Positions 35,210 through 43,863 of a stretch of 64,000 bases of DNA are shown here, in pieces. The notes below the pieces were generated by a model that worked only from the letters and a program-made list of their open reading frames with translations, had not been told where the DNA came from and searched no databases. Source of the stretch: Streptococcus australis. Its GTDB lineage: Bacteria; Bacillota; Bacilli; Lactobacillales; Streptococcaceae. The stretch covers positions 1,674,001 through 1,738,000 of the forward strand of contig NZ_LR594040.1 of assembly GCF_901543175.1 (NCBI RefSeq), read 5' to 3'. The position numbers and the translations under genes are program-made. Each line of letters starts with the position of its first letter. Within the stretch, counting starts at the first letter, position 1.

Positions 35210-36067
35210 ATGAAAATATCCAAAGTCACTATTACAATTACTTCTACACTTGCTTCCGTCATTTTACTGACTGGTTGTGGCACAAATTCGGCAAATTCAC
35301 AGACAACACAAAGTAGTACATCTGATAGTCAGGTTACAATGACCTACGATCAGTTGCGTTCAAGAGAGAACACTATGTCAACTCTTTGGTATCAAAAAGC
35401 AGCTGAAACCAAGGCACTCTATCTACAAGGCTATAATGTCGCTACTGATCGTTTGAAAGAACTACTAAAAACACAGACAGATAAACCCTACTCTATCGTT
35501 TTGGACTTGGACGAAACAGTATTAGACAACAGTCCTTATCAAGCTCAAAATGTCAAAGACGGAACAGCATTTACCCCAGAAAACTGGGATGTCTGGGTAA
35601 AAAAAGCCTCAGCCAAGGCTGTACCAGGTGCTAAAGACTTCCTCCAATTTGCAGACAAAAACGGTGTCCAAATTTACTATGTATCTGACCGCACGATAGA
35701 TCAGGTAGATGATACGATCAAAAACCTAGAAAACGAAGGAATTCCTGTACAAAGCCGCGATCATCTCATGTTCTTAGAAAAAGGCGTCAAATCTAAAGAA
35801 GGTCGTAGACAAGCAGTCCAAGAAAAAACCAACTTAGTCATGCTACTAGGAGACAATCTTGTGGACTTTGCAGAGTTTTCAAAGACCTCTGAAACTGAGC
35901 GCGACCAAAAATTAGAGGAACTACAAAAAGAGTTTGGTGAGAAATTCATCATTTTCCCTAACCCAATGTATGGATCATGGGAAAGCACTGTTTACAATGG
36001 TAATAAATTGGATGCCAAGGGTCAAACTGAAGAGCGCCAAAAAAACTTACAAGGTTTTGATAAATAA
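35210..36067 (+). CDS. 5'-nucleotidase / acid phosphatase lipoprotein, e(P4) family
   Basis: A 285-aa lipoprotein. The signal peptide ends in the lipobox LTGC, so Cys22-23 would be lipidated and the enzyme displayed on the membrane surface. The HAD-type motif VLDLDETVLDNS near residue 98 gives the catalytic aspartates, VSDRT is motif II, and LLGDNLVDF is the late acidic motif. These enzymes dephosphorylate nucleotides and other phosphomonoesters outside the cell, feeding nucleoside uptake. It is monocistronic, with its own promoter and a terminator-bearing repeat after the stop. Confidence 0.9.
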   Translation: MKISKVTITITSTLASVILLTGCGTNSANSQTTQSSTSDSQVTMTYDQLRSRENTMSTLWYQKAAETKALYLQGYNVATDRLKELLKTQTDKPYSIVLDLDETVLDNSPYQAQNVKDGTAFTPENWDVWVKKASAKAVPGAKDFLQFADKNGVQIYYVSDRTIDQVDDTIKNLENEGIPVQSRDHLMFLEKGVKSKEGRRQAVQEKTNLVMLLGDNLVDFAEFSKTSETERDQKLEELQKEFGEKFIIFPNPMYGSWESTVYNGNKLDAKGQTEERQKNLQGFDK

Positions 36068-36072
36068 AATAA

Positions 36073-36161
36073 GGGAGCTATATACCAGTTTACACCAACC
36101 ATAAGATATCGTATTTGCGAGAATATCAAAAAAGACGACTTCCAAGCGGAAATCGTCTTTT
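36073..36161 (-). repeat. terminator-bearing intergenic repeat, copy A
   Basis: Read on the minus strand: a hairpin with AAAAGACGAT / GTCGTCTTTT arms, a ~25-base spacer, then TTATGGTTGGTGTAAACTGG and TATATAGCTCCC. Copies B (39112-39202) and C (41475-41553) have the same parts. Resembles the class of pneumococcal terminator-like repeats (SPRITE) but I cannot confirm the family. On the plus strand it also ends the phosphatase transcript. Confidence 0.65.
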
Positions 36162-36502
36162 AATAAGGACTAAATTCCTCAGAGTGTTCGCTCATATAAT
36201 CTGCTAACCAGTTCATACCATAGACTATTTCAAGGGCTTCTAGATCCGCCATATATCTAGCAATTACTTTCCTATCTATTTTTGATACTTTCTTTTAACG
36301 CATCATAAACACAACCTTTGTTAATTGAGTTGAAAAACGATGATTTATAACAAAATCAGTACTTTCTATCGCAAAATTTCATGTATTTGTCGTAAAATAC
36401 TTCGGGCAGACTAGTCTGAACTTCAATCAATTTACCATCAATTCTTTGAGAAACGGACTTTTTCAATTCAAAATGTATTTCATTTAGTATAGATGTAGCC
36501 AT
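36160..36502 (-). pseudogene. degraded gene remnant
   Basis: Minus-strand ATG at 36502 opens MATSILNEIHFELKKSVSQR and stops at 36356. A second frame, ending at 36160, reads KVSKIDRKVIARYMADLEAL and continues to a C-terminus with coding-like composition. Together they look like the two ends of one small gene broken by frameshift or deletion. Family unknown. Confidence 0.4.
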
Positions 36503-36576
36503 AAATCATATTTTCTAAGTGGTTTATACACGACTATCCGTCAGGGAAAGCAAATATGCAAAATTTAGAAATTTTG

Positions 36577-36582
36577 ATATAA
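36577..36582 (+). promoter_or_regulatory. -10 box of the phase-variable leader/methylase transcript
   Basis: TATAAT with AT-rich upstream sequence, about 33 bases before the leader ORF start (36615). No strong -35 consensus is visible. Confidence 0.45.
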
Positions 36583-36614
36583 TAGAGCTATCAAAAAGTA
36601 AAGGAACGATTGGT

Positions 36615-36782
36615 ATGAAAGCAATCACAGCTCACAGCTCACAGCTCACAGCTCACAGCTCACAGCTCACAGCTCACGCTGATTATGTAATCAAGCGGAT
36701 TTTTTGTCAAGCCCTAAAACAGACTTTTTCACATTTTTGTGAGAAGGTCTTTTCTGTTGTGTATGAAAGTGAGGTGGCATAG
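36615..36782 (+). CDS. leader ORF containing the heptanucleotide repeat
   Basis: A 55-codon ORF from ATG 36615: MKAI, then the repeat-encoded TAHSSQL cycle, then an ordinary tail ending ...VYESEVA. Its TAG stop overlaps the GTG start of the methylase by one base (TAGTG), the geometry of translational coupling. Because the repeat unit is 7 bases, loss or gain of one unit shifts the frame and moves the stop: in one other frame it would stop at TGA 36770-36772, in the remaining one it would run past the GTG. The peptide itself is probably not functional; the reading frame is. Confidence 0.6.
   Translation: MKAITAHSSQLTAHSSQLTAHADYVIKRIFCQALKQTFSHFCEKVFSVVYESEVA
36625..36677 (+). repeat. heptanucleotide tandem repeat (TCACAGC x7 plus TCAC)
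   Basis: Seven perfect 7-base units and a partial eighth, inside the leader ORF. Short perfect repeats of non-triplet length are classic slipped-strand mispairing sites for phase variation. Confidence 0.95.
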
Positions 36783-39109
36783 TGAAACGTATTGAAATAA
36801 TACAAACTATTGGAAAAGAATACCTTACATCAAACATTGAAAATGATGAGTTTAGTTACCAGAAAGCTCTAAAAGAAGTCGGAAAAAATATAGCGGATTT
36901 TCAAAAAGAGCACTACAAACGAAAATACAAAGACTTAGATATTCGCTTTGAAAATGGTGGTCTGACAGTATTAGTAGAAACAAAAGCATCTTATAATGAA
37001 AAAGATTTCGAGCAGTTAGAAGCCTATGTAAGTTATGAAAAACAACTTACAAATAATAGAATAGTTGCTATACTTGCGAATACTAAAAACGATGATTTTC
37101 TAATCTGGACAGATGATAGTGGAATCATCAGTTCAAACAATGCCAATAAAAATGAGTATACCATACAGAATTTAGAGTATTATTTCGACTTGTTTTTCGG
37201 AACAAAAAATAATCGCCTGAAATTAGTTCAAAACACTTACTCATTAAATGAACTGCTACATAAATATGGAATAAACGAAAAAATTCGTAGTCAATTTGTA
37301 GGTACTTGTCTCTTATCTTTAAAATATAGTCTTACTTTTGAAGGGTTGGAAACAAAACAGATAATTTCAGGAATTGAAATTATCTTAACCAACTTGTTAG
37401 AAAAGGACTTAAACAAAGCCACAAAATTAACTATCTTAAAAAATAATGTACTTGATTCACAAGATGTAAGGGAGCTTCCCAAAGAAGATTTTTCCATAAT
37501 TTTGAGAAAAATCAAGAAGGATATATTACCATATATTAACGACAAAAATACAGCAGGACAAGATTTGCTAAACCTTTTCTTTACTACCTTCAATAAGTAT
37601 GTTGGTAAAGCAGATAAAAATCAGGCTTTTACTCCTGACCATATAGTACATTTCATGTGTAAGGTCGCAGGAATAAATAGAAATTCTGTGGTTTTAGACC
37701 CTTGTTGTGGTAGCGGAGCATTTCTAGTAAGAGCATTAACTGAAGCACTCGATGATTGTGATACAGAAGAAGAACGAAAGAATGTCAAGAAGCACCAGAT
37801 ATATGGTATAGAATTTGAAGATACTGCTTTCGGTTTATCAACAACCAATATGCTAATTCATGGCGATGGAAATTCAAATATTGTCAAAGGTAGTTGTTTT
37901 AATGAGGATAATTATGTTGATAAAGGTGTAAATGTTGTGTTAATGAATCCTCCTTATAATGCTCAAAGAAAACATTGTAAAAAAGAGTATGTTGCTGAAT
38001 GGTCTTCCAAAACAAACACCGACCCTTCTAAGGGGTTTCACTTTGTTTACGAAATAGCTGAAAAAGTCAAAACTGGAAAACTTGTTGTATTATTACCTAT
38101 GCAATGTGCTATTGGTAGCTCGAAAGAGAAGGAAATCAAACGCTATAAAAAAGAAATGATGAAAAAGCACACGCTTGAAGCAGTATTTTCACTACCTCCT
38201 GATGTATTTCATCCAGGGGCTAACGCTTCAGCTTGTTGTATGGTATTTAATCTAGGTGTACGACATTCAAAAGCTAATATCAAAGAAACATTTTTTGGTT
38301 ACTACAAAGATGATGGATTCATGAAAAAGAAAAACTTAGGACGAGTTGAAAAAACTGACCCATCTGGTAAAGGTGTATGGAAAGAAATAGAAAAAGAATG
38401 GTTAGAATTATTTTGGAATAGAACCAGTAAAATTGGAAAATCTATCGTAAAACAAGTTAATGAAACTGATGAATGGCTGGCAGAAGCATATATGGAAACT
38501 GATTATTCTGATACTCATAGTTTAGAATTCCAGAAGTCTATAAATGAATATCGAGCATACTCATTACGACACCAAGACCAAGCATTGAAAACAAATGGTA
38601 CTGAATTAGACACTTCCGATTGGAAGTATTTTAAGTTGGCAGGAAAAGGGGGGATATTTGAATTAGAAAGTTGTAAGTGTAAAAATGCCACAGAATTACT
38701 TGAAGAAGGCTCAGATATAGAATATATAGGGGCAAAAAAATCAGACGGTGGATTTATGGAATGGGTTAAAAACGTTCCAGAACTAACAACCAGAGGAAAT
38801 TGTATTGTTTTCATTTGTGATGGGCAAGGTTCAGTTGGTTATACTAATTATATAGACCATGATTTCATCGGCTCTACTACACTCTCTGTTGGAAGAAACA
38901 CTAATCTAAACAGATATAACGCTATGTTTATTGTAACTATTTTAGATAAAGAAAGATACAGATATTCATTCGGAAGAAAGTACAAGACAAACTTAACTAA
39001 AACAATGATTAGATTACCAGCTAAAAAAAATCCCAATGGGAAATATGAACCCGATTGGGACTTTATGGAAAAATATATCAAAACACTACCTCATGGCAAA
39101 AATCTATAA
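36782..39109 (+). CDS. type IIG-like restriction-modification enzyme (nuclease-methylase-specificity in one chain)
   Basis: A 775-aa protein with GTG start overlapping the leader stop. The N-terminal domain has LVETKA (Glu66, Lys68) after Asp51/53, a PD-(D/E)xK-like nuclease pattern. The N6-adenine methylase core has DPCCGSGAF (SAM site) near residue 305 and the catalytic NPPYN near residue 387. The last ~165 residues (from DWKYFKLAGKGGIFEL) look like a target-recognition domain of the type I S kind. One polypeptide would therefore methylate and cut; the target sequence cannot be read from it. AT-rich codon use and flanking repeats suggest acquisition. A solitary methylase is possible if the nuclease site is inactive. 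Confidence 0.8.
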   Translation: MKRIEIIQTIGKEYLTSNIENDEFSYQKALKEVGKNIADFQKEHYKRKYKDLDIRFENGGLTVLVETKASYNEKDFEQLEAYVSYEKQLTNNRIVAILANTKNDDFLIWTDDSGIISSNNANKNEYTIQNLEYYFDLFFGTKNNRLKLVQNTYSLNELLHKYGINEKIRSQFVGTCLLSLKYSLTFEGLETKQIISGIEIILTNLLEKDLNKATKLTILKNNVLDSQDVRELPKEDFSIILRKIKKDILPYINDKNTAGQDLLNLFFTTFNKYVGKADKNQAFTPDHIVHFMCKVAGINRNSVVLDPCCGSGAFLVRALTEALDDCDTEEERKNVKKHQIYGIEFEDTAFGLSTTNMLIHGDGNSNIVKGSCFNEDNYVDKGVNVVLMNPPYNAQRKHCKKEYVAEWSSKTNTDPSKGFHFVYEIAEKVKTGKLVVLLPMQCAIGSSKEKEIKRYKKEMMKKHTLEAVFSLPPDVFHPGANASACCMVFNLGVRHSKANIKETFFGYYKDDGFMKKKNLGRVEKTDPSGKGVWKEIEKEWLELFWNRTSKIGKSIVKQVNETDEWLAEAYMETDYSDTHSLEFQKSINEYRAYSLRHQDQALKTNGTELDTSDWKYFKLAGKGGIFELESCKCKNATELLEEGSDIEYIGAKKSDGGFMEWVKNVPELTTRGNCIVFICDGQGSVGYTNYIDHDFIGSTTLSVGRNTNLNRYNAMFIVTILDKERYRYSFGRKYKTNLTKTMIRLPAKKNPNGKYEPDWDFMEKYIKTLPHGKNL

Positions 39110-39111
39110 TC

Positions 39112-39202
39112 AAATAAAGACGATTTCCGAAAGGAAGTCGTCTTTTTGGTATCGTTGAAAATACTACATATTATGGTTGGTATAAACTGGTATATAGTTC
39201 CC
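39112..39202 (+). repeat. terminator-bearing intergenic repeat, copy B
   Basis: Hairpin AAAGACGATTTCC / GGAAGTCGTCTTTT with T-run (39116-39147) directly after the methylase stop, spacer, then TTATGGTTGGTATAAACTGG and TATATAGTTCCC. It is inverted relative to copy A, so A and B bound the cassette 36166-39111. Open helicase codons begin right after its end. Confidence 0.7.
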
Positions 39203-39203
39203 A

Positions 39204-41471
39204 AATGTAATTAATATTAAGTTTATTTCGATTCAGACGTTGACAAATGACCTATTCACACAGGCAGAAAATATCATGTCATTAAAAGATTACCAAAAGA
39301 CAAATATGGTTATTCTGGCGGATGAAGCCCATCACTATTCTGCTTCTACGAAAAAGAAAAATAAAACAGAATTGGAAAAAATCTCATGGGAAAAAAGCCT
39401 ATTTTCTCTTCTTCACGCACATGCTGATAATCTCTTGTTGGAATTTACAGCAACACTTGATTTTGACGATGAGACCATTTATCAAAAATATCGAGATAAG
39501 ATTATTTACCGTTATACCTTGGATTCATACATCAAAGAGCGATATTCAAAAAATGTAAGACGCATTCAGACAGGGAATTCCAATGAAGATAATATGCTTA
39601 GTACCGTTCTTCTGAGTGAATATCGTCGCAAATTTGCTCTAGAAAAATTTGGGATTGAGATAAAACCAGTCATTCTTTTCAAATCACATAAAATTGATGC
39701 TTCCTATGAAGCAAATAATCTATTCAATGGGATGATTGATAGTTTGACTGTGGAAAGTTTAAGATCGTTCCTTATTTCGCAATTGAGAAGTGTATCAGAA
39801 GAGCAAAGCCATACCCTACAGCTCGCTTACCAGTATTATCTCGAAAAGGATGATCTTTCAACTGTTGTTCGAGAAATTAAGCGTGGTTTTTCACCAGCTA
39901 GAATTCTAAATGCAAATGATTCAGACAGTAGTTCAAAAGGATTGCTAGAAACAGGACAGTATCAAGCCCTCAATTCGCTTGAATCGCCTAATAATCTGTA
40001 TCGTGTAGTCTTTGCCGTAGCAAAATTAACAGAAGGTTGGGATGTCCTCAATCTTTACGATATCGTTCGTATTAGCAACTTGGGAAAAATGAATGATAAA
40101 AGAAATGCTAAATCAACCAATTCCGAGGCTCAGTTGATCGGACGTGGGGCACGATACAATCCTTTCTCCTTAAATCAAAAAATTTCTTACCAAAGACGAT
40201 TTGATGAATCAGATGAAACAGCAAGTCTTTTGTTGGAAACATTACACTACCATACCCTTAATGAACCACAATACATCAAGAATTTGATGGCATCACTTGA
40301 CAAGATGAATCTTGCGACTGGAACTGATGAAAAAAATCCTCCAATTGAAATCAAACTAAAACCCTCTTTCAAGAAAACCCAAATCTTTCAAACAGGTAAG
40401 CTTTACTATAATGAAACTGAGGAAATTCCTGACAGTCACTATGTGAATTTACGTGCATATGGTATTGAAATTTCTAAGCTAGCCAATGTAACCTATTTTA
40501 AATCCACCTATGAAACAGCTTACCTTTCAGCTGAAGCAACAGAGTTAAAAACGTCCCAATTGAGGGGAATTGATATTCGTTATTTTAAAAAATCAATTAG
40601 CCGCTCTAACTTTTTCCGATTTGAAAATCTGAAAAGATATCTTCCAAATCTCAAGTCTATGGAAGATTTTTGGGGCGAAAATTGGCTAGATTTGCAAAAT
40701 CTTACACTCTCTGTCACAACAGAAAAAGAAACCATTGTAGAAGATTTTTCTGCTATGGAAAAGCTGAAAATTGTTGATAACTTTTTTAACCTACTGACTG
40801 CCCAAATAAAGGCGGGTTATCGCAAAGCAAGAGGTACAAACCGCTTTATCGGATATCCAATTACAGAATATCTCGTTAATTATCGCAAACGAATACCTAA
40901 TTATGATACAGCCAAACAGAGTGACTCCTACATTGAACAAAAAGTAGCTAATATTAGTTTTGAAAAATTTGACTTTTTTGCTTATCAATCAGCTATAATC
41001 AATAGAAATGAAGAAAATTTAGTTAATGCTATTGCCAATCATATTGAGGAACTAAGAGAACAATACGGTGATGTTTTCCTCGTTCGGATGGACGAAAACA
41101 TGCTAAAAGGTACAGATAAAGTTGAACAATTGAAATTGCACCAATTTGAAGAGAATCCACGGGAAATCAATTTTTCAGGATTTCAACCAGACTTTATCCT
41201 ACTTCTTCAAAATAAGTATTACTATCTTCAAATCTTCATTGAACCCAAAGGTGAACAATTGGCAGAAAAAGATAGATGGAAGGAGGAACTTCTTTCATAC
41301 ATCAACGACCATCAAGAAGATTTGATTTTCGAGGATGAAGTTGATGGAGTTATCATCAAAGGACTTAAATTCTATAATCAAGAAAATAGTAAACAAACAC
41401 TCAATCAATTAGCACAGGTGGCTCTTGAAAAACCACATTTTGGTGGAAATATTAGGCTGGACTTATTCTAA
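39204..41471 (+). pseudogene. 5'-truncated type III restriction (Res)-like helicase-nuclease
   Basis: The open frame continues upstream of the TTG at 39240 to repeat copy B (NVINIKFISIQTLTNDLF). It encodes the DEAH box (ILADEAHHYS) and C-terminal helicase motifs (KLTEGWDVLNLYDIVRIS ... QLIGRGARYNPF). The last domain holds a PD-(D/E)xK nuclease pattern (PDFILLL ... FIEPKG) near residue 665. The N-terminal part with helicase motif I (Walker A) is missing, and no Mod subunit precedes it. The truncation falls exactly at the repeat, so it is a broken res gene. An intact 743-codon frame from TTG could still be translated but could not hydrolyse ATP normally. Confidence 0.75.
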
Positions 41472-41474
41472 GTA

Positions 41475-41553
41475 GCAAAAAGACGATTTCCGCTTGGATA
41501 ATCGCCTTTTTTGCTATTTTATCTTGTACTTGGTATAAACTAATATATATTCC
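41475..41553 (+). repeat. terminator-bearing intergenic repeat, copy C
   Basis: Hairpin AAAAGACGATTTCC / GGATAATCGCCTTTTTT (terminator of the res-like gene) followed by ACTTGGTATAAACTAATATATATTCC, a more divergent copy of the A/B end sequence. Confidence 0.6.
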
Positions 41554-41795
41554 ACTAGATAGCATGCTCTATCCCTTGTATCAAAACTATAGTCCCCATT
41601 AATCTTTGTGTAGCTATCATAGTTTTTCATTAGAATGGAAGTTTTATCGCACTATCAAAAATCGTTCTTTCTATTCTTTTGATTCCCTCTAAGTTTGGGA
41701 CTAATCCAGCCTAGCATAGCAATAATACTTTATTTCTTTTCAGGATAAATAACTTAGTCATTAATACAGTGGCTCCTCACTCAAGTATAACAAGG
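41554..41795. other. intergenic stretch without recognised gene
   Basis: AT-rich sequence between the broken res gene and the glmS terminator. No ORF with a ribosome binding site and no clear repeat is seen. Confidence 0.4.
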
Positions 41796-41797
41796 AA

Positions 41798-41829
41798 GAG
41801 CAAAAAAGTCTAGGCGGACTAGACTTTTT
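41798..41829 (-). terminator. glmS terminator
   Basis: AAAAAAGTCTAG and CTAGACTTTTTT arms with a 5-base loop, directly after the glmS stop. Confidence 0.8.
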
Positions 41830-41833
41830 TAGC

Positions 41834-43642
41834 TTATTCTACTGTTACTGACTTAGCAAGGTTACGCGGTTTGTCCACATCAAGACCACGGTGGAGGGTT
41901 GCAAAGTAAGCAACCAACTGCGTTGGTACGACCATTGAGATTGGTGAGAGGTAAGGGTGTACGGTCGTAAGGACGATATCGTCTGTTTCTTTAGCAACAT
42001 TCTCTTCTGCGATGGTAAGGACTTTGGCACCACGAGCTGCGACCTCTTGGATATTTCCACGAGTATGGTTGGCAAGGACCGGATCTGACAAGAGGGCCAA
42101 GACAGGCGTTCCTTCTTCAATCAAGGCAATGGTTCCGTGCTTGAGTTCTCCAGCCGCAAAACCTTCACACTGGATGTAAGAAATCTCTTTGAGCTTGAGA
42201 CTAGCTTCCATGGCTACATAGTAGTCTTGACCACGTCCGATGTAAAAAGCGTTGCGAGTGGTTTCAAGAAGCTCACGAACTTTAGTATCAATCGTTTCTT
42301 TCTCAGAAAGAGTTGCTTCGATAGACTGAGCCACGATAGACAACTCACGAATCAGATCAAAAGCTTGTGCTTTAGCATTGCCATTTGCTTCTCCAACTGC
42401 TTTTGCAAGAAAGGCAAGGGCTGCAATTTGCGCTGTATAAGCCTTAGTTGAAGCCACCGCGATTTCAGGACCCGCGTGAAGGAGCATGGTATGGTTGGCT
42501 TCACGTGAAAGAGTTGATCCTGGCACGTTTGTAACTGTCAAGCTTGGAATCCCCATTTCATTGGCCTTGACCAAAACCTGACGGCTATCCGCTGTTTCAC
42601 CAGACTGGCTGATGAAGATGAAGAGAGGTTTCTTGCTGAGAAGTGGCATACCGTAGCCCCACTCAGATGAGATTCCAAGCTCCACTGGTGTATCCGTCAA
42701 TTCTTCCAGCATCTTCTTAGAAGCAAATCCTGCGTGGTAAGAAGTTCCAGCCGCAAGGATGTAGATGCGATCCGCCTCTTGAACAGCCTTGATGATAGCT
42801 GGGTCTACCACTACTTGACCCACCTCATCCGTGTAGGCTTGAATGAGTTTACGCATCACCGTTGGTTGCTCATCGATTTCCTTGAGCATATAGTAAGGGT
42901 AAGTTCCCTTACCGATATCAGACAAATCAAGTTCAGCAGTGTAGCTAGCACGCTCACGGCTATTGCCATCATAGTCTTGCACTTCAACACTGTCAGCCTT
43001 GACAATTACCAACTCTTGGTCATGAATTTCCATGTATTGGTTGGTCTCACGAATCATTGCCATAGCATCTGAGCAGACCATATTGTAGCCATCTCCAAGA
43101 CCAATCAAAAGTGGTGATTTGTTCTTAGCGACATAGATGACATCTGGATTTTCAGAGTCAATCAAGGCGAAGGCATAAGAACCACGGATGATGTGAAGGG
43201 CTTTTTTGAAGGCTTCAAGAACTGAGAGACCATCTTCTTCCGCAAATTTTCCAATCAAGTGAACGGCGATTTCCGTATCTGTTTGCCCCTTGAAGTGGTG
43301 ACCTGCAAGGTATTCTTCCTTGATTTCGAGGTAGTTCTCAATCACTCCATTGTGCACCAAGACAAAACGTTCAGTCTCAGAGCGATGTGGGTGAGCATTG
43401 TCCTCGGTTGGTTTCCCATGAGTCGCCCAACGCGTATGTCCGATACCAGTTGTTCCCTCAACGCCAGTAGTTTTAGCAGACAATTCTGCGATACGCCCTA
43501 CAGCCTTGACTAGGTGATTTTCAGCACCACCTAGGACAAAAATTCCCGCAGAATCATAGCCACGGTATTCGAGTTTCTCAAGCCCTTGAATCAAAATATC
43601 AGTTGCATTTGTGTTTCCAACAACACCGACAATTCCACACAT
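41834..43642 (-). CDS. glmS: glutamine-fructose-6-phosphate aminotransferase
   Basis: A 602-aa enzyme making glucosamine-6-phosphate for cell-wall precursors. It starts MCGIVGVVG, with Cys2 as the glutaminase nucleophile after Met removal. The N-terminal glutamine amidotransferase domain covers about residues 1-230 ([17 protein letters not shown]), followed by two SIS sugar-isomerase domains. The C-terminus [13 protein letters not shown] is the invariant family ending. No glmS ribozyme is recognisable upstream. Confidence 0.97.
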
Positions 43643-43809: not shown

Positions 43810-43863
43810 TGACAAGTAGGACTCGATTACTTATATGACAAGTAGGACTCGATTACTTATAAT
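43810..43863 (+). promoter_or_regulatory. duplicated promoter module of the EamA gene
   Basis: Two perfect adjacent copies of a 26-base unit (43810-43835 and 43836-43861). The second gives ATGACA (43835-43840), 17 bases, TATAAT (43858-43863), a near-consensus promoter; the first carries CTGACA and a weaker -10 at the same spacing. The ribosome binding site GAGAGGAGG follows. Confidence 0.75.

Follow-up and report, generated by a model that had tools for sequence, protein, structure and literature searches.

A repeat-bearing leader with a terminator-like hairpin as a probable phase-variable attenuator of restriction-modification genes in Streptococcus

As a rule, it is repeats within the gene itself that reveal a methylase to be phase-variable. 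In the stretch of Streptococcus australis DNA analysed here (hereafter the window: 64,000 nucleotides of contig NZ_LR594040.1, positions 1674001-1738000 of the 1.93-Mb genome), seven TCACAGC units lie within a short leader upstream of a type IIG-like restriction-methyltransferase gene, and the question is how a repeat placed there could switch the gene on and off, and whether the arrangement belongs to this enzyme or to a wider group of genes. An earlier note on this DNA had proposed translational coupling between leader and enzyme, with copy number setting three expression levels. Our analysis leads us to consider it likely that the leader is a phase-variable attenuator combined with start/stop coupling for restriction-modification genes.

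The leader open reading frame (ORF) starts with an ATG and, in its present ON frame, runs for 55 codons (36615-36782; MKAITAHSSQL...ADYVIKRIFCQALKQTFSHFCEKVFSVVYESEVA) to a TAG; it and its elements, the enzyme gene and the res remnant are on the plus strand. It is preceded by an extended -10, TGATATAAT (36575-36583), a putative promoter element of the leader transcript, and by the Shine-Dalgarno sequence (SD) AAAGGA (36600-36605), both read from the sequence; a TATAAT-like hexamer is found at a similar spacing 5' of most related leaders having upstream sequence listed. The tandem array comprises seven full TCACAGC units and a final TCAC (36625-36677; 7.6 copies, 100% identical), has the highest Tandem Repeats Finder score of 18 rows (106), and is the only TCACAGC array of more than three units in its own genome. 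As the earlier note had stated, it is inside the leader ORF rather than the enzyme gene. Downstream of the array, and absent from that note, the ORF contains a terminator-like hairpin (36721-36750) with a 13-pair stem and a 4-nt loop, followed by the U-rich TTTCTGTT. The overlap of the leader stop with the enzyme start was also recovered, TAG 36780-36782 and GTG 36782-36784 forming TAGTG (36780-36784), and the enzyme SD, GAGGTGG (36771-36777; likewise read from the sequence), falls within the leader ORF. The consequences of a one-unit change differ from those first proposed, namely a stop at TGA 36770-36772 or reading across the GTG. One off frame ends at TGA 36680-36682, 38 nt before the hairpin, and the other at TAA 36688-36690, 30 nt before it. 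Since both stop directly after the repeats, two states are expected rather than three: the leader is predicted to have one ON and two similar OFF frames, and three expression levels set by copy number are left without support.

The distribution of the leader was examined in a sample of 284 Streptococcus genomes, each of a different species. With the 73 nt that follow the repeats as a BLAST probe, this 3' module was found at 47 places, the window included, in 41 genomes (L032 and L125 are one S. cristatus S22 contig and were counted once). A covariance model built from 32 modules gave 62 rows, of which 49, in 42 of the 284 genomes (about 15%), had E<1e-5, the 13 weaker ones being probably generic terminators. 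Loci L247 and L248 were found only later, by the covariance model, and are outside all counts based on 47 loci. In a 395-genome sample of the order, the module matched nine genomes, all of them Streptococcus, one of 80 genera, and there was no match in the other 79 genera. The idea of a mobile element carried by phages or plasmids was rejected, a 72-nt leader probe having no match at E<=1e-5 in phage or plasmid collections; an exact 33-nt leader pattern was likewise absent from viral contigs. The common 3' module is preceded by different units: TCACAGC, TCACAGT (L126), CACAG (L148, L160, L247), ATCAA (L162, L164-L167) and the 8-nt units TCACCAGC (L134, L135) and AGCTCACA (L163). None of these unit lengths (5, 7 and 8 nt) is a multiple of three, and all are frame-shifting.

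At 35% identity, the 47 downstream ORFs fell into 14 clusters, ten of which include at least one long ORF, the other four being short pieces only (L153/L154, L159, L161 and L160; at L160 the mod gene continues in another frame). The gene at L247, of different domain make-up, was not clustered and is counted as an eleventh group. Pfam and PADLOC searches of representatives identified type IIG-like N6 methylases, EcoRI-type adenine methylases, type III Mod and a RAMA-domain DNA methylase, and the type IIG-like methylases alone form several clusters with mutual identity of only 23-31%. As far as examined, 48 of the 49 strong places precede a methylase-type gene or its remnant; the exception is L159, a 33-residue fragment whose beginning may resemble an HsdR N-terminus. 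Leader-bearing fragments at L153, L154, L161, L168 and L248 resemble remnants of methylase genes. Searches of Pfam, PADLOC and NCBIfam left the largest cluster (16 loci, with the L128 and L146 types) unmatched, and L128 had no counterpart among solved structures. The proteins of this cluster are about 770 aa long (L128:793-3111, L146:795-3083), and since five inspected members contain an N-terminal ExK together with DRCAGTG and NPPY, the cluster is probably an unrecognised IIG-like family.

Because the same leader stands before many different methylase genes, it looks like a portable switch and not like part of this enzyme family. That it belonged to the enzyme family was considered and rejected: of the 31 enzyme loci taken, 30 matched the enzyme (L042 did not), and among these 30, for three of which the available upstream DNA was shorter than 400 nt, an upstream TCACAGC array is confined to S. 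cristatus S22; L049 and L055 have AT-only tetramers and 27 are without any array of at least three units of 4-9 nt. On balance we favour the view of the leader as a plug-in module for phase variation, genus-wide in distribution and made up of promoter, slippery repeat, two off-frame stops, attenuator hairpin and start/stop coupling, which no fewer than 11 methylase-gene groups have recruited and whose repeat unit has been exchanged several times. Genome G196 carries four leader copies (L134, L135, L148 and L247), with 5- or 8-nt units, before four methylase-type genes, two of which are EcoRI-type.

The hairpin was analysed both in the window and across the modules. The segment 36710-36765 folds with -16.7 kcal/mol (z -3.92; 0 of 200 shuffles equally stable), and the hairpin has the most pairs among the plus-strand terminator-like sites of 36000-39300, a region with 6 such sites on both strands against 1.3 expected. 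The pairing alignment was made of 32 of the 35 distinct modules (L142, L163 and L168 were excluded for indels, and L169 yielded no module). In this alignment, 97.8% of 416 cells were paired, compared with 49-73% in slid registers, and changes on both sides of the stem were observed in 13 cells, the shuffle mean being 1.0 (0 of 500 shuffles reach 13). The covariation seen in the alignment can be called real but modest. When the same peptide was recoded with synonymous codons, the folds were on average less stable than the native ones (mean z of the native folds -2.55 over the 32 modules); in 20 of the modules, at most 3 of 300 recodings were equally stable. Columns 76-83 hold 5-7 T among their 8 bases in each of the 32. 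L160 and L161 build perfect stems from different letters, and L247, found by the covariance model only, keeps the hairpin with a loop of its own. Four loci searched against Rfam gave no match at the gathering score.

With the downstream start picked by its SD among the in-frame starts, and the other two frames counted after their early stops, the ON-frame leader stop lies within -5 to +15 nt of the start in 43 of the 47 loci and that of each other frame in 0 of 47; many of these loci are related, and the counts are not independent trials. Most overlaps take the form TAATG/TAGTG or ATGA or have the stop 7-8 nt inside the gene, and the four misses are L142, L149, L159 and L168, the script having chosen an upstream start for L149. 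The TAA of the window corresponds to module column 14, where an off-frame stop (TAA or TAG) occurs in 47 of 47 loci, and the TGA to column 6, where 45 of 47 have one.

Natural variation of the repeat was assessed from the same loci. Among the 31 of 47 whose leader start was recognised by the script, 11 are ON, 13 OFF by TGA and 7 OFF by TAA/TAG, a tally which appears not far from the expectation under free drift of phase, and in which L142, without its hairpin, is entered as ON. Of the 16 loci left out, L148 and L163 read OFF, and for several more the contig starts within the repeat; L247, outside the tally, also reads OFF. Between species, leader length differs in 24 of 25 locus pairs with downstream proteins at least 85% identical, and ON is predicted against OFF in 8 of the 25; these pairs overlap and are not independent. 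A 99.6% identical enzyme follows 7 units (ON) in the window and 5 units (OFF) in S. cristatus S22; the proteins of L126 (ON) and L127 (OFF) are 99.9% identical, and those of L165-L167, with three leader lengths, 100%.

These observations can be arranged into a mechanism. Transcription would start some 25 nt upstream of the leader ATG. With 7 units, or another number congruent to 1 modulo 3, the leader is in its ON frame, and ribosomes would translate all 55 codons through the hairpin at 36721-36750, their passage would keep it from stopping transcription, and they would finish on the TAG overlapping the GTG and so be delivered to the enzyme start. Once one or two units have been gained or lost, presumably by slippage, ribosomes would leave at TGA 36680 or TAA 36688, with 30 nt or more still separating them from the hairpin, which would then form and end most transcripts, the few continuing ones being without coupled initiation; methylation would be expected to change with the state of the leader. 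In Escherichia coli pyrBI, ribosomes translating a leader through the terminator hairpin relieve termination, under control of the UTP level; pyrBI differs from the streptococcal leader in that this control is by UTP and not by repeat number. No Rho above the family cut-off was found in the genome (two hits, 39.8 and 21.3 bits, against 509), so that Rho-dependent polarity would not be expected to follow from loss of translation by itself; this would favour the intrinsic hairpin as the transcriptional step.

A comparable design has been described in the genus. In the passages of Danne et al. (2014; PMC3894217) considered here, the S. gallolyticus pil1/pil3 leader ORF contains GCAGA repeats with a stem-loop terminator downstream, and pil1 expression was shown experimentally to rise when the frame lets ribosomes reach the stem-loop. 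According to the same passages, the mainly low, mixed profile accompanies stops that are at least 28 nt before the terminator, and many high cells accompany stops immediately in front of the terminator or past it. As far as these passages go, the methylase leader is alike in genus, logic, distances, non-triplet repeat, stem-loop and frame-decided reach of the ribosome. It has start signals and a repeat unit that is not a multiple of three 5' of the gene, and a stem-loop and U-run, read at the sequence level, between repeat and gene; one frame reaches the stem-loop and the others end at least 28 nt before it (30 and 38 nt). The pil1 leader differs in having GCAGA units and pilus genes, and these passages describe no leader stop overlapping the downstream start. 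The conserved terminator-like hairpin of the methylase leader points to translation-dependent transcription attenuation of the pil1 type. The likeness to pil1 appears to be one of design and not of sequence, and common descent is unsupported, the covariance-model matches including none of the nine listed GCAGA places (among which the pil1 locus itself was not identified). Repeat-leader attenuation is thus known from pil1, and what appears to be new is a portable version common to many streptococcal methylase genes. In the open-licence PMC literature, no paper recognisable as describing this leader was found, although other papers may describe it; searches for TCACAGC with Streptococcus and phase variation, and for the peptide or repeat strings, gave 0 papers each.

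Arrays of GCAGA were present in 7 of 279 Streptococcus genomes sampled, and nine such places were fetched. The GCAGA leader of L211 (MSRAEQ...) ends with TAATG on a type III mod-like gene, and those of L209 and L212 (MSRAEQ...) have strong terminator-like hairpins before other genes. At L204, 24 GCAGA units lie in a coding sequence, acetyltransferase-like by the look of its sequence, as an ordinary in-gene frameshift repeat.

Other phase-variable methylases provide a further comparison. In the type IIG enzyme of Campylobacter jejuni, the variable tract reportedly lies within the gene. This enzyme resembles that of the window in being a phase-variable type IIG enzyme and differs in that no leader control is described in the passages considered of PMC4889913. 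In S. suis ModS, according to the passages considered of PMC6265453, the repeats are joined to mod in one ORF that is turned ON and OFF by gene frameshift, and a 119-bp piece between repeats and mod is required. ModS is alike in having a varying repeat tract before or at the start of a Streptococcus methylase gene, its GAGCA unit being a rotation of GCAGA, and differs in that those passages describe no leader or attenuator.

Could the coupling proposed in the earlier note be sufficient? Its core, that phase varies through a repeat leader and stop/start coupling and not through an in-gene frameshift, agrees with the geometry at 43 of 47 loci and with the variation in leader length. Coupling alone, with the hairpin having no role in termination or being the mark of an older terminator, would account for these overlaps and for the position of GAGGTGG within the leader ORF. 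It would leave aside a hairpin that has been conserved, whose stability on average exceeds what the peptide needs, that has a U-rich tail in 32 of 32 modules, and that is retained with different letters at L160, L161 and L247. We therefore hold coupling alone to be unlikely as the whole story, the conserved hairpin pointing to attenuation as well. That repeat length tunes expression gradually, through promoter spacing, mRNA folding or mRNA stability, is the least probable of the explanations weighed here. The minimum-energy fold of the full leader does pair repeat units with the enzyme SD region; the centroid fold does not, the repeat is downstream of the -10 and inside an ORF, units such as ATCAA have no SD complementarity, and the frame-specific stops would be left unexplained. 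Pairing between repeat and enzyme SD was also considered as an extra lock and was rejected, being impossible where the unit differs.

A different possibility is that the repeat varies and expression does not, the leader being a relic or a hitch-hiking repeat element moved with restriction genes by recombination. Its occurrence with unrelated genes, its recurrence with different genes at one slot and the copies before broken or shortened genes (L124, L138, L152, L153, L154, L159, L160, L161, L168 and L248) are what such an element would leave. The frame-exact placement before divergent genes, the conservation of off-frame stops and hairpin, and the methylase-type gene or remnant at 48 of the 49 strong places make this very improbable.

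Several observations nevertheless weigh against an attenuator. The changes on both sides of the stem are confined to 3 of the 13 pairs (shuffle mean 1.0; 16 of 500 shuffles), the stem remains 96.6% paired when its 3' letters are shuffled among sequences (5 of 500 shuffles reach the observed 97.8%), further pair types do not exceed shuffles (121 of 500) in the 32 modules, and the modules used for covariation are related sequences. Since the BLAST probe contained the hairpin, its presence is partly due to selection, and the hairpin of L145 is hardly more stable than its own synonymous recodings (z -0.82). At L160 and L161, one off-frame stop is only 23 nt before the hairpin. L146 and L149-L152 are all ON despite four leader lengths, from which phase appears not random there, and with one genome per species the variation recorded is between species and is no demonstration of switching within a clone. 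Finally, uncoupling of transcription and translation, as reported for Bacillus subtilis, would weaken antitermination by ribosomes, although pil1 shows that antitermination can work in Streptococcus.

The enzyme under this leader (36782-39109, 775 aa) has an N6_Mtase domain, its best PADLOC matches are type IIG models, and it contains a nuclease motif, D53..E66-T-K68, and the methylase motifs DPCCGSG and NPPY. In an alignment of the window enzyme with 25 relatives, those of the 31 loci that passed a coverage filter, D53, E66, T67 and K68 (PD-ExK), D306 and C309-G310-S311-G312 (motif I) and N389-P390-P391 (motif IV) are invariant in 26 of 26 sequences, so that a fusion of nuclease and methylase is the best reading of the enzyme. 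In many relatives the chain stops near residue 600, short of the C-terminal region, which presumably holds target recognition. The earlier description of a self-contained type IIG enzyme is thus borne out by motif, with nuclease, N6-adenine methylase and presumed recognition region in one chain.

In the window, the order is an acid phosphatase gene (35210-36067), the leader, the enzyme gene and a remnant of a type III Res helicase (39240-41471) whose N-terminal part of about 170 residues, with the ATP-binding motif, is missing. The same slot in genome G121 (L157; 98% identity at 35750-36165 and 94% at 39203-43000) has a leader of 12 units, in an OFF frame, followed by a complete type III mod-res pair whose Res has 912 aa, and the window carries the IIG gene in place of mod and the first approximately 170 residues of res. 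From promoter through enzyme (36570-39217), the window and S. cristatus S22 match at 97.4%. In L139 the slot is occupied by an EcoRI-type methylase, and at L153/L154 the leader start is lost and an ORF of 55 aa is kept that includes the enzyme's first residues. The leader may then serve as a homologous edge for the exchange of methylase genes within the slot. An element of up to about 100 nt occurs in three copies, one of them partial (36060-36161, 39113-39215 and 41476-41549), two being inverted around the IIG gene and all three genomic copies being at this slot. An invertible segment between the inverted repeats 36060-36160 and 39116-39215 was considered and rejected, as there was no evidence of inversion and one copy is a minus-strand terminator-like hairpin. 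Further downstream, a perfect 26-nt tandem duplication (43810-43861) lies upstream of glmS.

Since the leader repeats lie outside the gene, surveys of in-gene repeats could miss them. If the attenuator model is true, about 15% of the sampled Streptococcus genomes (42 of 284) would each contain one or more methylation or restriction systems, or remnants of them, with a hidden on/off control, and in a genome such as G196 as many as four of these would be switched independently and stochastically, each by its own attenuator. The leader would also be a homologous handle for the swapping of methylase genes in one chromosomal slot, and it draws attention to a methylase-like family that goes unrecognised in Pfam, NCBIfam and PADLOC. 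Natural variants in both states are at hand for a direct test of the model, and its confirmation would have a bearing on phage resistance, DNA uptake and epigenetic heterogeneity in streptococci.

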